Shown: one piece after another, positions 3,786 to 36,287 of the stretch
Numbering within the stretch: position 1 is the stretch's first letter
Layout: every line of letters begins with the position of its first letter
Assembly (NCBI GenBank): GCA_030446805.1
Contig: JAUJMO010000003.1
Span: 186,001 to 250,000 of the forward strand
DNA from: Caulobacteraceae bacterium
Lineage (GTDB): Bacteria > Pseudomonadota > Alphaproteobacteria > Caulobacterales > Caulobacteraceae
Reading direction: 5' to 3'
Length of the DNA stretch: 64,000 nt
Made by a program: the position numbers and the translations under genes
The notes under the pieces: model-generated
What the model was told of the DNA's origin: nothing
The model's database searches: none
What the model saw: the letters and a program-made list of their open reading frames with translations, nothing else

Positions 3786-5294
3786 ATGCGCGACATCGAC
3801 CATTTCATCAGCGGCGGCCGTGTCGCCGGCGCCTCTGGCCGCTTCGGCGAGGTGTTCGATCCCAATACGGGATCGGTCCAGGCGCGCGTGCAGCTGGCCA
3901 CGGAAGGGGAGGTCGACCGGGCCGTCCAGGCGGCGCAGAGCGCCTTTGCGACCTGGCGCGAGGTGAACCCGCAGCGACGGGCGCGGGTCATGTTCGAGTT
4001 CAAGCGGCTGGTCGAAGCCAATATGAACGCGCTGGCCGAGCGGCTGTCCGCCGAGCACGGCAAGGTCATCGCCGACAGCAAGGGGGACATTCAGCGCGGG
4101 CTGGAGGTGATCGAGTTCAGCTGCGGCATCCCGCACGCGCTCAAGGGCGAATACACGGTCGGGGCCGGCCCCGGCATCGACGTCTATTCCATGCGGGTGC
4201 CCCTGGGGGTGTGTGCGGGCATCACGCCGTTCAACTTCCCAGCCATGATCCCGATGTGGATGTTCGGCACCGCCATCGCGGCCGGCAACACCTTCATCCT
4301 GAAGCCGTCGGAGCGCGACCCCTCCGTGCCGGTGCGGCTGGCGGAGCTGATGATGGAGGCCGGTGCGCCGGAGGGCGTGCTGAACGTCGTGCACGGCGAC
4401 AAGGCGGCGGTGGACGCCATCCTGACCCACCCTCTGATCCGGGCCGTGAGCTTCGTGGGCTCGTCCGACATCGCCCATTACGTTTATTCCACGGGAACGG
4501 CCCACGGAAAGCGCGTGCAGGCGTTCGGCGGGGCCAAGAACCACGGGATCGTGCTGCCGGACGCGGACATGGAGACCACCGTGCGCGACCTGGTGGGCGC
4601 CGCCTACGGCTCGGCGGGGGAGCGGTGCATGGCGCTGCCGGTCGTGGTGCCGGTCGGCCAGCGAACGGCGGACGAACTTCGCGAGCGGCTGGTTTCGGAG
4701 ATCGAGACCTTGAAGGTCGGCCATTCCACCGACCCGGAGGCGCAATACGGGCCGGTGGTGACGCAGCAGCATCGTGACCGCGTGGTGGGCTGGATCGACA
4801 CGGCCGTGGAGGAAGGCTCGGAGTTGGTGGTCGACGGCCGAGGCTTCAGCTTGCAGGGGTCCGAGAAGGGGTTCTTCATCGGGCCCACGCTGTTGGATCG
4901 GGTGAAGCCGGAGATGCGCTCCTACCAGGAGGAGATCTTCGGGCCGGTGCTGCAGATCGTGCGGGCGGCGGACTTCGAGGAGGCGCTCTCGCTGCCGACC
5001 AAGCACCAATACGGCAACGGCGTGGCCATCTTCACGCGCGACGGCCGTGCGGCGCGGGACTTCGCCGCGCGGGTGGAGGTCGGCATGGTGGGCATCAATG
5101 TGCCCATCCCGGTGCCGGTGGCCTACCACAGCTTCGGGGGGTGGAAGCGTTCGGGGTTCGGCGACACCAACCAGCATGGGATGGAAGGCGTCCGCTTCTG
5201 GACCAAGACCAAGACAGTGACGCAGCGCTTCCCCGAGACCGCGCTCGAAGGCGGCCACCAGGACTCGAGCTTCGTCATCCCCACGATGCGGTGA
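3786..5294 (+). CDS. mmsA: CoA-acylating methylmalonate-semialdehyde dehydrogenase
   Basis: 502-aa NAD-dependent aldehyde dehydrogenase that converts (methyl)malonate semialdehyde to propionyl- or acetyl-CoA in valine, thymine and inositol breakdown. Features specific to this subgroup are the ITPFNFPAMIPMWMF cofactor segment, the VGSSDIAHYVYSTG motif, the active-site Cys in GERCMALP, and the C-terminal KTKTVTQRF. The length of about 500 aa is typical. It starts 113 nt from the divergent mutM gene. No other valine-catabolism genes are adjacent, although the crotonase at 1064-1855 could belong to the same pathway. Confidence 0.93.
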   Translation: MRDIDHFISGGRVAGASGRFGEVFDPNTGSVQARVQLATEGEVDRAVQAAQSAFATWREVNPQRRARVMFEFKRLVEANMNALAERLSAEHGKVIADSKGDIQRGLEVIEFSCGIPHALKGEYTVGAGPGIDVYSMRVPLGVCAGITPFNFPAMIPMWMFGTAIAAGNTFILKPSERDPSVPVRLAELMMEAGAPEGVLNVVHGDKAAVDAILTHPLIRAVSFVGSSDIAHYVYSTGTAHGKRVQAFGGAKNHGIVLPDADMETTVRDLVGAAYGSAGERCMALPVVVPVGQRTADELRERLVSEIETLKVGHSTDPEAQYGPVVTQQHRDRVVGWIDTAVEEGSELVVDGRGFSLQGSEKGFFIGPTLLDRVKPEMRSYQEEIFGPVLQIVRAADFEEALSLPTKHQYGNGVAIFTRDGRAARDFAARVEVGMVGINVPIPVPVAYHSFGGWKRSGFGDTNQHGMEGVRFWTKTKTVTQRFPETALEGGHQDSSFVIPTMR

Positions 5295-17038: not shown

Positions 17039-17053
17039 GTTCTCTACCTGTTC
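17039..17053 (+). promoter_or_regulatory. LexA (SOS) box upstream of comM
   Basis: GTTC-TCTACCT-GTTC exactly matches the alphaproteobacterial SOS box GTTC-N7-GTTC. It lies 60 nt ahead of the comM start, where it could block a promoter. To my recollection comM belongs to the LexA regulon in Caulobacter, which supports the call. Confidence 0.8.
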
Positions 17054-17112: not shown

Positions 17113-18678
17113 ATGGTCGCGCGGGTGGTCACGGTGGCGTTCGAAGGGGTCGAGCCCCGGCGTGTGGACGTCGAAGTCCAGCTGATGGGCGCCGTCCAGC
17201 CGCGTTTCGCGGTGGTGGGATTGGCGGACAAGGCCGTGGCGGAAAGCCGCGAAAGGGTCCGCGGCGCGTTCGCCGGGCTGGGGCTGGCCATGCCCGGCAA
17301 GACCATTGTGGTGAACCTTTCGCCGGCGGACCTCCCCAAGGAGGGCAGCCACTACGACCTGCCCATCGCCCTGGCCTTGATGGCGGCCATGGGGGTGCTG
17401 CCGGCCGACAGCCTGTCGGAGTGGCTGGCGATCGGCGAGCTCAGCCTTGACGGCCGGGTGCTCCCGGTGGCGGGAACCCTGCCCGCGGCGGTGGCCGCCC
17501 ACCAGTTCGGGCTGGGGCTGATCTGCCCGGAGGCGAGCGGGCCGGAGGCGGCCTGGGCGGGCGACGTCTCCATCCTGCCCGCACGCTCGCTGATCGCGCT
17601 GGTGAACCACTTCCGCGGCTCTCAGGTGATCTCGCCGCCCAAGCCCGGGCCGGTGGTGGAGGCGCAGGGCGTGCCCGACCTCCGCGACGTCAAGGGGCAG
17701 GAGCACGCCAAGCGGGCGCTGGAGATCGCGGCTGCGGGCGGCCACAACCTGTTGTTCGTGGGCCCCCCGGGGTCGGGCAAGTCCATGCTGGCGCAACGCC
17801 TGCCGGGCCTGCTGCCGCCGCTGACCCCGGGCGAGCTGCTGGAGACCTCCATGGTGCATTCGGTGGCGGGGCTGATCGCCAAGGGCGCGCTCACGCGCTC
17901 GCGCCCCTTCCGCGCGCCGCACCACAGCGCCAGCATGGCCGCGCTCACCGGAGGCGGGCTGAAGGTCAAGCCGGGCGAGGTCTCCCTGGCGCACAACGGG
18001 GTGCTGTTCCTGGACGAACTGCCGGAGTTCACGCCGGCGGTGCTGGATTCGCTGCGGGCGCCGCTGGAGACGGGCGAGGTGCTGGTCGCGCGCGCCAACG
18101 CCCATGTGCGCTATCCGGCGCGGGTGCAGCTGGTCGCGGCCATGAACCCGTGCCGCTGCGGCGCCGGCGGGGGCGGGCGCGGCGCCTGCGGCAAGGCTCC
18201 GCGCTGCCAGCGGGACTACCAGATGCGCGTCTCCGGTCCCCTGATGGACCGCATCGACCTGCAGATCGACGTGCCGCCGGTGACGCCCGCCGACCTGGCC
18301 CTGCCGCCCCCGGCGGAGGGCACGGCCGAGGCCGCCGCCCGGGTGGGCGCCGCCCGCGCGGCCCAGGCTGAACGCGCGGGCGAAGGCGCCGTCAACGCCC
18401 GGCTCGAGGGCGACCTGCTGGAGCGCCACGCCCAGCCGGACGCGCCCGGGCGCGCCCTGCTGTCCCGCGCGGCGGAGGCCGGCGGTCTCACGGCCCGCGG
18501 CTGGACCCGGACCCTGCGGGTCGCCCGCACCGTGGCCGACCTGGACGGCGCGCCCGGCGTGCGCCGGCTGCATGTGGCCGAAGCGCTGAGCTATCGCCGA
18601 ACGGCGCCCGGAGTGGAGGCGGAGGGGAGCCGGGGGCGCTTTACGGCAGGGGCATGGGCGGGGGAGAGTGCACGCTGA
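17113..18678 (+). CDS. comM: YifB/ComM family Mg-chelatase-like AAA+ ATPase
   Basis: 521-aa hexameric helicase-like protein; in naturally competent bacteria ComM promotes branch migration during integration of foreign DNA. The N-terminal domain (about 1-170) is Lon-protease-like (VVGLADKAVAESRERVR). The AAA+ core has Walker A GPPGSGKS and Walker B VLFLDELPEF, then the CRCG ... CQRDYQMRVSGPLMDRIDLQ segment with conserved Cys residues. The C-terminal Mg-chelatase domain ends with AEALSYRR plus a short tail. A perfect LexA box lies upstream, so damage induction is likely. Confidence 0.95.
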   Translation: MVARVVTVAFEGVEPRRVDVEVQLMGAVQPRFAVVGLADKAVAESRERVRGAFAGLGLAMPGKTIVVNLSPADLPKEGSHYDLPIALALMAAMGVLPADSLSEWLAIGELSLDGRVLPVAGTLPAAVAAHQFGLGLICPEASGPEAAWAGDVSILPARSLIALVNHFRGSQVISPPKPGPVVEAQGVPDLRDVKGQEHAKRALEIAAAGGHNLLFVGPPGSGKSMLAQRLPGLLPPLTPGELLETSMVHSVAGLIAKGALTRSRPFRAPHHSASMAALTGGGLKVKPGEVSLAHNGVLFLDELPEFTPAVLDSLRAPLETGEVLVARANAHVRYPARVQLVAAMNPCRCGAGGGGRGACGKAPRCQRDYQMRVSGPLMDRIDLQIDVPPVTPADLALPPPAEGTAEAAARVGAARAAQAERAGEGAVNARLEGDLLERHAQPDAPGRALLSRAAEAGGLTARGWTRTLRVARTVADLDGAPGVRRLHVAEALSYRRTAPGVEAEGSRGRFTAGAWAGESAR

Positions 18679-18734
18679 AGGGGGACGGCGCGCCAGGGGT
18701 GCGCCGGGTTGTTCGCGGAACGGACTTGGGCGGT

Positions 18735-19358
18735 CTAGTTGGCGCTTGCCGAAACCGGCGGGTCCCCGTTGGTCCTGAACGAAGCCTTGAACGCGCCCAA
18801 GCTCGTCTGGGCTGAACAGGTCACCCTCCCGGCCCCTTCGGGATTGGCATGACGGCATGAACCGACCGCTTCCACGGGCGTAGGCGGCTCCCCGGTGCGA
18901 ACTCGGGCGAAGATGACGAGGTCGAGAGGCCGCACCACCGTGTCGCCGTCGCGCAGAGCGGCGGCGCTTATCCCGGAGAATGTGACGAGGGCCTCATTCG
19001 CGGCGATGAAGATGAAGCCGCTGCGACCCGTCTGGTGACTCGAACTGGTTATCTCACCCACGCACCCCGGTGTTGCGACGCCGGCGATGATCAGCTCGGT
19101 GCACTCTCCCGACAACGAAACCAGATCCTGCACCTGGCTGAGGTCTGGGGTCGGACGGGTCTGACGGGCGCTCGGGGCGCTGTCCCGGGCGGCGGAGCTC
19201 GGGGTGGGCGTCGCGGCGGGCTCCGCATCATCTTGCGCCGGCAGTCCCGCACGCGCAGCGATGATGAGCGCAGCCAGGCCGATCAGGCCGACGCCGGCGA
19301 CAATCCAGGGCCGCCGCCTTGATGGCGCTCGCGCCCCCGGCCGCGACCTTTCTCCCAT
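18735..19358 (-). CDS. Orphan single-span anchored exported protein
   Basis: 207-aa protein with a basic N-terminus (MGERSRPGARAPSRRRPW), one membrane span (about 19-41) and a Pro/Ala/Ser/Thr linker. A small extracytoplasmic domain follows (about 75-205), with Cys residues at ECTEL, TPGCVGE, SCRHAN and TCSAQ that could form two disulphides. The last part (AGRVTCSAQTSLGAFKASFRTNG) looks beta-stranded. A GGGAGGA site 9 nt upstream supports the ATG at 19358. I recognise no family. It opens the accessory stretch and diverges, across 310 nt, from a LexA-boxed gene. Confidence 0.75.
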   Translation of the reverse strand: MGERSRPGARAPSRRRPWIVAGVGLIGLAALIIAARAGLPAQDDAEPAATPTPSSAARDSAPSARQTRPTPDLSQVQDLVSLSGECTELIIAGVATPGCVGEITSSSHQTGRSGFIFIAANEALVTFSGISAAALRDGDTVVRPLDLVIFARVRTGEPPTPVEAVGSCRHANPEGAGRVTCSAQTSLGAFKASFRTNGDPPVSASAN

Positions 19359-19668
19359 GACGGCGTCCTCCCATCGGTCAGAATGGACGCTGGGAGCTTG
19401 CCCGCCAAGCGGCTGGATCAGAAACGCGGCCGTAAACCCGCCTCGGCTGATTTTGTTGGCGATGTTCCGTTCTGTCTCGGGAACACCGATCGCCGCCAGC
19501 CCGCACTCGCCCGTGGGACGTACGGTGGCCATGCCGATGGAGGAGGAGCCGACCGACACCGCTCGTGTCCGGGCCGACCGAAGCTGTCGTCCACAGAATA
19601 CAGAACAGGACGCGAACATAGAGGTCGCTTCATCGCCGCCGCGGCCCTACCCAGCGGGTGGAGGATCG
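19359..19668. other. 310-nt divergent spacer with a LexA box
   Basis: Spacer between the anchored orphan (minus) and the 99-aa orphan (plus). Apart from the LexA box at 19603-19617 and ribosome-binding sites at each end, I see no RNA gene, repeat or credible ORF. Open frames continue through it on both strands but lack starts with ribosome-binding sites. Confidence 0.5.
19603..19617 (+). promoter_or_regulatory. LexA (SOS) box upstream of the 99-aa orphan gene
   Basis: GAAC-AGGACGC-GAAC, the reverse complement of GTTC-N7-GTTC, is a perfect alphaproteobacterial SOS box. It ends 51 nt before the ATG at 19669, the usual operator distance. The other divergent gene starts 245 nt away, so the plus-strand gene is the likelier target. 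Confidence 0.7.
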
Positions 19669-19968
19669 ATGGTCAAGGTCAGGTACACAGGGCTGGGTGA
19701 CCCGAAGGGCGCCTTCGATGCGCTGCGTCCGTTCCGCGATGAGCTGGTCCGAATGAGCGGCCGGTATTTCCCTTTCGGCCCGGAGTATCTCGTCATCTTG
19801 CAAGTCAAACAGGCGCTCGATCGCGCGGCCGCCCACTTTACGGGGGATCCCACCTTCTACGGTGGCAAGATCAAGCCAGAACCCGGTCCGACGGAGCGAG
19901 TCCTCGAACCGCGCGATAATGAGGGAGCGGCTGACGGCGCCGCCAAGCCCGACGTCGGCAGTGGTTAG
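19669..19968 (+). CDS. 99-aa orphan protein, probably SOS-regulated
   Basis: Small soluble protein, MVKVRYTGLGDPKGAFDALR..., with a GGAGG ribosome-binding site 5 nt before the ATG. Residues 1-70 look folded: a beta strand, a helix (FDALRPFRDELVRM), then FPFGPEYLVILQVKQALDRAAAHF, a long helix. The C-terminal 30 residues are charged and probably disordered. I recognise no family, and no catalytic motif is visible. A perfect LexA box 51 nt upstream suggests DNA-damage induction. Size and context would fit a small checkpoint or repair-accessory protein such as the SOS-induced division inhibitors of Caulobacter, but it lacks their membrane span, so that is speculation. Confidence 0.7.
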   Translation: MVKVRYTGLGDPKGAFDALRPFRDELVRMSGRYFPFGPEYLVILQVKQALDRAAAHFTGDPTFYGGKIKPEPGPTERVLEPRDNEGAADGAAKPDVGSG

Positions 19969-20150
19969 CTGTCCCATGCGCGGGTCCGAGTCTGGCGAGA
20001 CAGACTCGCCCGCTCCGCGCCGCCACGAGCGGCCCCTGGACGACCAGCCAGAAGCGGACTCTATGGTTATCGTTCGTTCCCAATGAAGCGAACCTCCTCG
20101 CCGTAGCGCAACCGCTGCGCTAATCTCGCTCGTAAAGGTCCAATATCCGT

Positions 20151-20411
20151 ATGAACGAGCGCTTCTCACCCGACGACATGGCTCGAATGGCCCTGGCGGT
20201 ATTCAGGCACTTTGGGTCGCGCCCCAAGGACTCGCTTCGCGCAGACAACTTCGAGACCTTCGCTCCACGCAGAGGCTGGGCCCCAGAGGATCTGATGGCC
20301 GGCATCGAGCACGGGAAGGTGCTCGGGTGGTTCGAAGACGGTCCGAACGAGTCCGTTCGCCTCACTAACGTGGGGTTCGTGCAGATTGAGCCCACGACCA
20401 CCAGCAGGTGA
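20151..20411 (+). CDS. 86-aa orphan, possibly winged-helix-like
   Basis: Small soluble protein, MNERFSPDDMARMALAVFRHFG..., with helices about 7-20, 28-35 and 46-57 and a C-terminal VRLTNVGFVQIEP. The ending V.LT..GF resembles the wing of many winged-helix proteins. An AAAGG site lies about 13 nt upstream, so the start is acceptable but not strong. A long antisense frame also covers this stretch, but its sequence looks like a shadow. Unknown function. Two GANTC sites (20410-20414, 20423-20427) form an inverted repeat overlapping and following its stop codon. Confidence 0.55.
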   Translation: MNERFSPDDMARMALAVFRHFGSRPKDSLRADNFETFAPRRGWAPEDLMAGIEHGKVLGWFEDGPNESVRLTNVGFVQIEPTTTSR

Positions 20412-20630
20412 CTCGCAGCACTGAGTCGTCCGAAGTTGTAGAAGGCTGGGGCGCAGGCCAAGGCCATCGGGTCGCCGAAATCGGGCAGACGGGGAGCAAG
20501 CCAGCCCACGCCGCCTGAGATTTAGATCGCCGCTCAGCGACCCGCGCGTTAGGCATAGGCATTGTCGGCTTGAGCAACGGCTGCCGACAACAGAGAGACG
20601 CTGCTGCGCTTCCGCCCTCCAGGGAAGCGC

Positions 20631-21019
20631 ATGTCCGACAACCACCTTGTGCCCATGCTTTATGTCGACGACGAGCCTCTCATCCAGGACTTGGTGGAGG
20701 CCGCGCTGCACGAGGCCGGGTTCGGCGTCATTCTGGCGGCCACGCCGGCGGAGGCGTTGGAAGCCATCAAGTCGCCGGGCCTGCGGGGCGTGGTGACGGA
20801 CATCAACCTCGCCGACCCGATGGATGGCTGGGAGGTCGCGCGCCATGCGCGAGCGACCCACCCCCAGAGGCCCGTGGTCTACGTGAGCGGCCTCTGCGAG
20901 AGCGAGTGGATCGTCAAAGGGTCCCGCAAAGCCTGATGATCGCAAAGCCGTTCGCGGCTGCGCAGATCATCGTCGCCCTGTCCACGCTTAGGGTCACGCC
21001 CACTTCGAGGATCATCTAA
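20631..21019 (+). pseudogene. Frameshifted single-domain response regulator
   Basis: Receiver domain, MSDNHLVPMLYVDDEPLIQ..., with the acidic pair (VDDE) and the phosphoacceptor Asp in VVTDINLAD. Translation ends early at 20936 with GSRKA. The adjacent frame continues exactly where homologous receivers go on: VPQSLMIAKPFAAAQIIVALSTL, including the invariant Lys (AKPF). Adding one G to the GGG at about 20918-20920 would restore a receiver of about 130 aa. The truncated form lacks the conserved Lys and the last helix, so it is probably inactive. It resembles receivers paired with HWE/LOV sensor kinases, and a decayed kinase lies just downstream. Confidence 0.75.
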
Positions 21020-21104
21020 CCGTCCCCGGCCTTTCGAGCGCGGCGGCGCCTGCAGGCCCCGCCCGTGTTCGCCGCGCCGACCCTCGGGAGAGAACCAGGA
21101 CCTC

Positions 21105-21376
21105 GCCCATTAGCGAGTCCTGGAAGCGGTCGTCGACACGCTCGAGCGCACGCGCGGCGATAAGCACATCGAGTGAGTGCGCCAGCAGGGCGGCCTTTCG
21201 TGGAGGCCGTTCGCGTCACCCGCATGCCTATGGTGGTCACCGAGCAGCGTCGCCGGCAGACAAACCCGCTCGTCACCGTCCCCCTGCAGGAGCCGGAGAA
21301 TCGCATCCGCGCCATGGCCTGGGTGCTCGACCAGAATCCCGCTCCGCCGTCGCGCCTTCCCGCTCGCTGGTTTTGA
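21105..21376 (+). pseudogene. Decayed PAS/LOV-type sensor kinase remnant
   Basis: The stretch between the broken receiver and the hybrid kinase encodes, in pieces, what looks like the N-terminus of a LOV/HWE-type sensor: LEAVVDTLERTRGDKHIE, a stop where a Trp codon (TGG to TGA, 21174-21176) would be expected, VRQQGG, then a frame change in CTTTC (21195-21199), then FVEAVRVTRMPMVVT and NPLV. Such proteins typically read ...RTRMPMVVTDP..DNPIVF. A later piece, ENRIRAMAWVL, faintly resembles an HWE-kinase H-box, implying internal deletion. The expected start reads ATT AGC GAG TCC. Identification is by eye and uncertain in detail; that it is non-coding now is clear. Confidence 0.5.
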
Positions 21377-21410
21377 GCCGGCGTTAAGGCCCGCCGGTCA
21401 TGCTGGCCTT

Positions 21411-34434: not shown

Positions 34435-36287
34435 GCCGGCGTCCCTTGTTGTTCGAGTCCAGCCCGCGGCTGATCTACGCCCACGACCTGTTCATGGCCG
34501 GTTCGGCGATGGCGCTGACTCTGGTCACCCGGTTCGCCTTGGAGGGCAAGCCGATCCCGGGCTCCCTCCTGCCAACCAGCATTCTCGTCTTTGTGCTGAT
34601 CTGCGCCGTGATCTTCCCGCTGTTCGGGCTCGGCAAGGGCATCTGGCGCTACACGGCGGTGCGCGACGTATGGCGGATCTTCCTGGCGACCGCCGCAGCC
34701 AATCTGCTGACGCTGCTGATCATGTTCCTGTTCACCCGGGCGGCGGAATTTCCCCGATCCACCCCGATCGTGGTCACCCTGCTGGCCACCGCGCTGTTGA
34801 GCGCCGGGCGGGTGCTTGCCGTGGCGCTGTCCACTGGAGGGCGGCTGCTGGGCTGGGGGTTCGAGGACCGGAGCCGGCCGGCCTCGGTGATCGTGGGCGA
34901 CCCGGAGATGGTGGCCGAGTATCTGACCGGCACCCGGGCCAAGCTGTCCCGCGCAGCGCCGATCGCGGGCATGGTGACCCTGGGGCCGGCCCGGAGCGGC
35001 CGCACCGTCCGCGGCGTGCCGCTGCTGGGGGACATCCGCAATCTTGCGGCGATCCTGAAGGCGGTGACCGCGCGGGACGCCCGGCCTCCACAGGTGGTGG
35101 TGGCCGATCCCCGCCCCACCCGGGCGGTGCTGGACGCGGTGGTCACGGCTGCGAGTGAGGCCGGCGCCACCGTGGCGCGCGCTCGACCGACCAGCGGCGG
35201 TGAGACCCAGCTTTCGCCCGTCCAGGCGGCCGACCTGCTGGCGCGTCCGCCGCGCAAGCTGGATCCGGAGCGGGCGAGGCGGCTGATCAATGGACGGCGC
35301 GTGCTGGTGACGGGCGCGGGCGGCACCATCGGCGGCGAGCTGACCCGGCAGGCCGCGCGACTGGGGCCGGCGCATCTGATCCTGGTGGATGCGTCCGAAT
35401 TCAACCTTTACGCCATCGACGCCCAGCTTCGAGAGGAGAAGCTGGAGGTCCCTTGGACAGCGGCGCTGGGCGACATCCGCGATCCCGCACGAATGAAGGA
35501 GGTGTTCGACCTGGGACGCCCGGACGTGGTGCTGCACGCCGCCGCCCTGAAGCACGTGCCGTTGATGGAGACCCACCCGGCCGAGGCCGTGCTGACCAAT
35601 GTCGCCGGCGCCATCTATGTGATGCAGCTCGCGCGCGAGCGGTGCGAGGCCTTTGTGTTCATCTCCACCGACAAGGCGGTGAACCCGACCAACGTCATGG
35701 GAGCCACCAAGCGCGTTGCCGAACGTGCGGTGCGGGCGCTGGCAGCGGGCGGTCGCGCGCGGACGGCGGTGGTGCGGTTCGGCAATGTGCTGGGTTCGGC
35801 CGGTTCGGCCGTTCCCTTGTTCGAGCGGCAGATCGCGCACGGCGGGCCGGTCACCATAACCGACCCGCAGATGGTGCGCTGGTTCATGACGGTGCAGGAG
35901 GCCGCAGCCCTGGTGCTCGAAGCCGGCGCCCTGCCCGAGGCCGACGACGCCGGAGCGGTGTTCGTGCTGGACATGGGCGATCCGGTGCGGATCGACGACC
36001 TGGCGCGCCAGCTGATCCGGCTGCACGGCCTGACGCCCGACCGGGACATCCCGATCCGCTACACGGGGCTGCGCCCCGGCGAGAAGCTGTCGGAGGAGAT
36101 CTTCTACGCCGCGGAGGCCGTGCGCCCGACAGCGGCGGACGGCGTGCTGGCGGCGGTGGACCCCGCCCCGGACTGGGCGGTGTTGGAGCCGGAGGTGCGG
36201 GTGCTGATCCATGCGGCCGAGCGACGCGACGAGTCCGCCGTGTTGGCCGCCTTGCAACGGCTGGAGCCCGCGTTCCGGCCGGGTTAG
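34431..36287 (+). CDS. CapD/FlaA1-like membrane nucleotide-sugar dehydratase
   Basis: 618-aa polysaccharide-biosynthesis protein with four N-terminal spans (about 10-130) and a CoA-binding-like domain (about 140-270). A C-terminal Rossmann SDR domain follows (about 285-600; [17 protein letters not shown]). The active-site region is [17 protein letters not shown]: Met stands at the usual catalytic Tyr, as in FlaA1/CapD/PglF UDP-GlcNAc 4,6-dehydratases. Likely product is a 4-keto-6-deoxy UDP-sugar for surface glycan or flagellin glycosylation. The GTG start overlaps the heparinase-like gene by 4 nt. A cytidylyltransferase at 39288-39974 could belong to the same pathway. Confidence 0.9.

Follow-up and report, generated by a model that had tools for sequence, protein, structure and literature searches.

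The SOS regulon of Caulobacter comprises 47 genes, and the LexA operator of Alphaproteobacteria, GTTCN7GTTC, mostly occurs as a single box near the gene start (both from the consulted sections of PMC12700426). Many SOS genes are without a known role. The ImuA-ImuB-DnaE2 mutasome, as presented in the consulted part of PMC12926913, combines a LexA box, the error-prone polymerase DnaE2 and an operon organisation. Furthermore, SRAP genes adjoin DnaE2 and small zinc-chelating proteins, and SRAP-Ku operons carry two uncharacterized Zn-ribbon-like domains (Aravind et al. 2013, PMC3765255, sections consulted). The locus analyzed here lies in a 64-kb stretch of DNA (64,000 nucleotides, hereafter the window) from a member of the Caulobacteraceae and consists of a LexA-type operator and the gene of a 99-residue protein (Table 1). 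We suggest that this protein belongs to an undescribed family of soluble helical hairpins of Caulobacterales that would be LexA-repressed, damage-derepressed and act as accessory or adaptor factors in DNA-damage tolerance, an account that we consider reasonably probable. The operator is conserved in two families of the order, and some members are linked by neighbourhood to DnaE2, SRAP and zinc-ribbon genes, so that the proposal is concrete and testable.

Table 1. Features of the window and of selected regions that carry relatives of the 99-residue protein.
Feature	Region	Position	Strand	Remarks
LexA-type operator GAAC-N7-GAAC	window	19603-19617	.	GAACAGGACGCGAAC; other-strand reading GTTCGCGTCCTGTTC; exact match
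GGAGG ribosome-binding site	window	19660-19664	+	from the sequence; 4 nt 5' of the ATG
Gene of the 99-aa protein	window	19669-19968	+	translation, homologues, alignment and model; TAG stop 19966-19968
Family domain of the 99-aa protein	window	residues 1-70		tail 71-99 variable, low-confidence
comM	window	17113-18678
LexA-type box of comM	window	17039-17053		exact; 59 nt before the start
DUF6471 fragment	window	19410-19499	-	residues 41-70 of ORF 18735-19619; E 9.3e-11; profile positions 27-56 of 65
86-aa ORF, accessory stretch	window	20151-20411		no Pfam match
Small response regulator, accessory stretch	window	20631-20936
Three more exact GTTC-N7-GTTC boxes	window	4663-4677, 34490-34504, 49970-49984
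Extra dnaE2 copy	L167	8395-11589		without imuA-imuB
Extra dnaE2 copy	L168	9370-12561		without imuA-imuB
Extra dnaE2 copy	L169	5060-8254		without imuA-imuB
100-103-aa CxxC...CxxC protein	L172	6717-7028		at or a few nt from the family gene stop
100-103-aa CxxC...CxxC protein	L171	7037-7345		at or a few nt from the family gene stop
100-103-aa CxxC...CxxC protein	L182	8575-8886		at or a few nt from the family gene stop
Family member on viral contig IMGVR_UViG_3300036800_000528 (L069)	L166	10001-10213		own box at -72

The layout described in the sequence-only reading, an exact box 51 nt before the ATG of a 99-codon gene with a GGAGG ribosome-binding site, was confirmed. On its own, a single box is weak evidence, since the window contains five exact boxes where shuffled sequences have 1.26 on average (five are reached in 2 of 100 shuffles), and its conservation before homologues hence decides. 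In the whole genome (3.04 Mb), 95 exact boxes compare with 44 for the reversed control pattern. A random box next to a spurious or unrelated ORF would be a rival account of the locus, with which the low codon score of the gene (11) would agree. Its relatives point the other way, as the window protein shares up to 54% identity with proteins of other genera and dN/dS is well below 1 (0.02-0.22 in eight pairs of family members), from which it follows that the ORF is constrained as a protein.

The ORF is conserved and patchily distributed. Within the bacterial family of the window, the single protein had matches in 38 of 299 genomes (E 0.01) and a profile in 44 of 390 (E 0.001). At the level of the order, another profile (A4) picked up 19 of 299 genomes, 12 of these in a second family. 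Class-wide searches yielded three and five of 385 genomes, the window's own genome counted in each, and among these matches G479 alone, with a box at -47, is convincing; the remaining matches, weak and partial (L071, L281-L283), are not treated as family members. The sequences of the broad alignment varied too much to support a pattern scan; a subset of closer sequences yielded nine named loci and one viral contig. Among the named carriers are the strains Phenylobacterium haematophilum DSM 21793 and Caulobacter ginsengisoli DSM 18695, and the others comprise two Phenylobacterium bins, three Caulobacteraceae bins and two bins with less precise names; these names mark the bacterial family as Caulobacteraceae. 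No match came up when named genomes, viral contigs, plasmids and phages were searched with a single sequence, and two further viral scans returned the same single viral contig and nothing else. Family members measure about 70-100 residues, with a core of about 65 residues and, among closer members, the pattern Y-x-G-[LV]-x-DP...F..LRP...(R/K)PFG..[DE]Y...A...AAYHFT..P.FY; in one part of the genus to which Phenylobacterium belongs, a single protein contains the domain twice (135-164 residues). One match (L222 in G049) falls in an unusual ORF and is possibly a degraded copy.

Upstream DNA was inspected for the box in 63 gene regions, drawn from 10 genera plus a viral contig. They include near relatives, 14 being from the second family of the order, and amount to 61 distinct regions, with L173/L197 and L216/L217 identical over the first 150 nt. 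Left aside were a partial match with a stop in G069 (L081), a fragment on G294:C155, and G025, G058 and G207, matched by the single sequence only (E 0.007-0.010). In 56 of the 63 regions an exact GTTC-N7-GTTC, in either orientation (29 one way, 27 the other), precedes the domain by no more than 220 nt, and in 59 by no more than 400 nt; the median distance is 42 nt, and distances refer to the extrapolated first profile position and not to newly called starts. Box density upstream is 3.93 per kb, compared with 0.052 per kb over the other 785 kb of these regions (75-fold), figures that rest on a count of 55 of 63 with the start of L172 shifted by a spurious extra domain match. In nine of ten genera at least one member has the box within 400 nt, and in the tenth it precedes the first gene of the operon. 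Of the four regions outside these 59, L195 features a one-mismatch box at -78, L206 has its box before the first gene of the operon, L200 has just 243 nt of upstream DNA, and L203 has no box upstream. For the family, box density, purifying selection and the box before 59 of 63 regions refute the chance reading, which as an explanation of the locus we regard as extremely improbable.

The distance from box to start varies and is no fixed multiple of three, so the box encodes no conserved peptide. Three start codons are possible in L218 and in L219, and there the box overlaps the first one, which counts against our explanation, as does the GC-rich spacer of the window box (GCGTCCT), given that family spacers are 71% A+T (commonest GTTCTGCTTTTGTTC, 11 of 56). 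Of ten genomes tested, all have an exact box in front of lexA and nine have one in front of recA. The window genome carries two at lexA (G000:C1:533253; -69 and -44) and one at its imuA-imuB-dnaE2 locus, where imuA and imuB were recognised by eye. Its recA has no exact box, and the one other genome of its genus (93% complete) lacks the gene; both observations speak against the preferred account. Judged from these upstream sequences, a LexA-type operator is conserved before the family, as it is, in the genomes examined here, before lexA, recA, imuA and comM, and from this conservation we infer LexA control and regulon membership. LexA would repress the gene, and RecA-dependent LexA cleavage after DNA damage would switch it on. 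With operator and ORF both conserved, the suggestion of the sequence-only reading that the gene is a member of the DNA-damage response is supported at this level, and two of the refuting conditions named in that reading, a box lacking before every homologue and an unconserved ORF, do not apply.

The window protein matches no described family. It found no match in Pfam, NCBIfam or PADLOC and an insignificant best match in PHROGs (E 0.078), which bears out the earlier statement that it is of no known family. According to Pfam and NCBIfam, the 99 residues contain neither an ImuA RecA-like nor an ImuB Y-polymerase-like domain; the SRAP domain (PF02586) does not match the window protein and occurs as a neighbour in relatives only, and no enzyme motif was recognised in the protein. 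An AlphaFold2 model built on ten sequences features helices at residues 12-17, 20-30 and 38-58 and a low-confidence tail (pLDDT block means 90-95 for residues 11-60, overall mean 75, pTM 0.53). The predicted fold is a helical hairpin without membrane segment. Foldseek found nothing significant in the PDB (best E 2.2 for SrfA, 7xnj, on which no paper was among the literature matches listed) or among viral models (best E 0.16), and the best VIA-align Z of 6.2 is within the range of common helical arrangements. No activity is readable from these fold searches, a further point against our explanation. One segment of a family-B DNA polymerase (5mdn, residues 472-512), presumably its fingers, appeared in a sequence search at E 0.019 (0.17 for the segment itself; Foldseek E 3.0), and we take it as a lead and not as homology. 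As no catalytic or membrane feature was recognised, the protein probably has an accessory or adaptor role.

SidA and DidA are single-pass membrane peptides. They resemble the family protein in being small and damage-related, but the latter has no membrane segment: the best mean hydropathy over 19 residues is 0.63 for the window protein and 0.59-0.99 across the five members tested, and by these values a membrane peptide is unlikely. Small size, SOS operator and Caulobacterales host would all suit a factor that, in the manner of SidA, is SOS-induced and inhibits cell division or acts as a checkpoint. The SidA of Caulobacter is itself LexA-controlled (PMC12700426, in the part consulted), and division inhibitors had been brought up in the sequence-only reading. 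This remark found no support, as none of the five members tested has a hydrophobic segment and the recurring neighbours are damage-tolerance genes; by eye, no recurring division gene was recognised in the predicted genes of 24 regions. Given the absence of a membrane segment, we consider a division inhibitor quite improbable, and less likely than an accessory damage-tolerance factor.

The gene neighbourhoods suggest that the family probably helps cells to tolerate damaged DNA. SOS-type partners, i.e., SRAP, small CxxC proteins and DnaE2, lie near the family gene in 15 of 63 regions, a lower bound given that 13 regions have less than 4 kb of DNA on one side; the gene finder used a home-made codon score and may miss small genes. 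In the other 48 regions, the window included, none of these partners was detected, and this argues against our explanation. The window gene (L226) stands alone, with no SRAP, DnaE2 or CxxC partner within about 6 kb, so that any partners would have to act in trans; its genome encodes both DnaE2 and SRAP at other places. SRAP proteins of the YedK/HMCES type shield abasic sites. Their genes are near the family gene in nine of 63 regions, compared with an expectation of about 0.4 that was calculated from the 26 SRAP matches of 12 genomes (about 52 Mb); these genomes were not randomly drawn, and several of them have SRAP near the gene. The SRAP of G133 was missed by the Pfam search and found by a local profile, and L170 shows a truncated SRAP-like start (MCNEY, 79 residues) that was excluded from the nine. 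Together with DnaE2, SRAP and small zinc-ribbon proteins, the family protein would then act in damage tolerance.

In L174 and L178 a member, a CxxC protein (100 residues in L174, 65 in L178) and SRAP follow each other on one strand; in L182 a member and a 103-residue CxxC protein face SRAP on the opposite strand, and in L206 the box is followed by the CxxC protein, the member and then SRAP. The CxxC protein of 100-103 residues is located directly 3' of the family gene in eight regions, L199 included, and found no match in Pfam (L172 and L062 copies) or NCBIfam (L172 copy). In L198, a second copy of the CxxC protein occurs about 2 kb further. Three regions (L167-L169) share the order box, two-domain member, dnaE2, one or two small CxxC proteins and, on the other strand, SRAP (Pfam PF02586 in L167). 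The polymerase of L167 is error-prone DnaE2 according to Pfam and to NCBIfam PRK05672 (1399 bits, cut-off 939). Over the first 500 polymerase residues the three cassettes are 81-88% identical; they are hence close relatives and not independent, which weakens our explanation, as does the patchy occurrence of the family.

In contrast to the ImuA-ImuB-DnaE2 mutasome, the helical protein precedes dnaE2 in these three regions instead of imuA-imuB, and the dnaE2 genes concerned are second copies, each of the three genomes holding a further dnaE2 behind an imuB-like gene (by eye). The overlap that would mark a subunit of a DnaE2 mutasome, with the dnaE2 start overlapping the family gene stop, is limited to these three of 63 regions, and the dnaE2 of the window genome lies elsewhere (G000:C4:447679). 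We may speculate that on mobile elements of Caulobacteraceae the two-domain member replaces ImuA-ImuB and recruits the second DnaE2, along with zinc ribbons and SRAP, to lesions as a minimal mutasome, that conjugation spreads this damage-induced mutator module, and that single-domain members modulate the resident polymerase. We deem this unlikely. If functional, such cassettes with a second DnaE2 and without imuA-imuB would be transferable mutagenesis modules of a composition unlisted in the DnaE2 section of PMC12926913, a survey of 2026 that names no such helical partner there.

Mobile-type genes accompany the three cassettes, namely MobC and DUF736 in L167, a DUF736 homologue in L168 and a relaxase in L169, and by eye L206 also has a DUF736-like gene. 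On the viral contig, the member with its own box is found at the contig end behind structural genes, two genes after a DNA-ejection gene. Mobile elements and prophages might thus use the family as an SOS gene that is selfish or modulates the host, e.g., an anti-SOS factor or modulator of RecA or LexA, whose induction serves transfer or prophage release instead of repair, and its patchy distribution would be in agreement with this. However, many copies reside among ordinary-looking chromosomal genes (by eye), the position on one strand with the genes of DnaE2, SRAP and CxxC proteins, or the overlap with them, speaks for repair, and purifying selection is strong within one genus of the second family. 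We hence consider a gene in the service of mobile elements somewhat unlikely.

The LexA operator, SOS-regulated accessory genes and the associations of SRAP with DnaE2 and with zinc ribbons (2013, PMC3765255, sections consulted) are already known. Like the operons described there, some of the regions analyzed here have SRAP beside DnaE2 and small zinc-chelating proteins; the helical-hairpin family differs in being without mention in these sections. Neither the family nor DnaE2 cassettes that begin with it are mentioned in the consulted parts of PMC3765255, PMC12700426 and PMC12926913, and no title on either was among the literature matches listed, a scope that excludes subscription papers and supplementary tables. 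The protein is unnamed in the consulted text of PMC12700426, supplementary gene tables aside, and the family may be an unnamed locus in the published Caulobacter SOS list.

The window copy itself sits in a locally inserted stretch, in line with the accessory location given in the sequence-only reading. In two related genera (G008 and G002), comM and a homologous hybrid kinase gene are about 0.1 kb apart, whereas in the window they are separated by about 2.7 kb (18679-21410) that is absent in G008 and G002, and GC content falls to 64.2% at 19300-20600 (70.6% for the window). The DUF6471 fragment seems to be a relic within this inserted DNA. We take chlI (ccna_00139) of C. crescentus to be comM. 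This chlI gene is listed as a late SOS gene (PMC12700426, in the part consulted), and the box of comM in the window is in keeping with chlI of Caulobacter being under SOS control. The comM genes of two related genera (L285, L286) likewise have an exact box just upstream.
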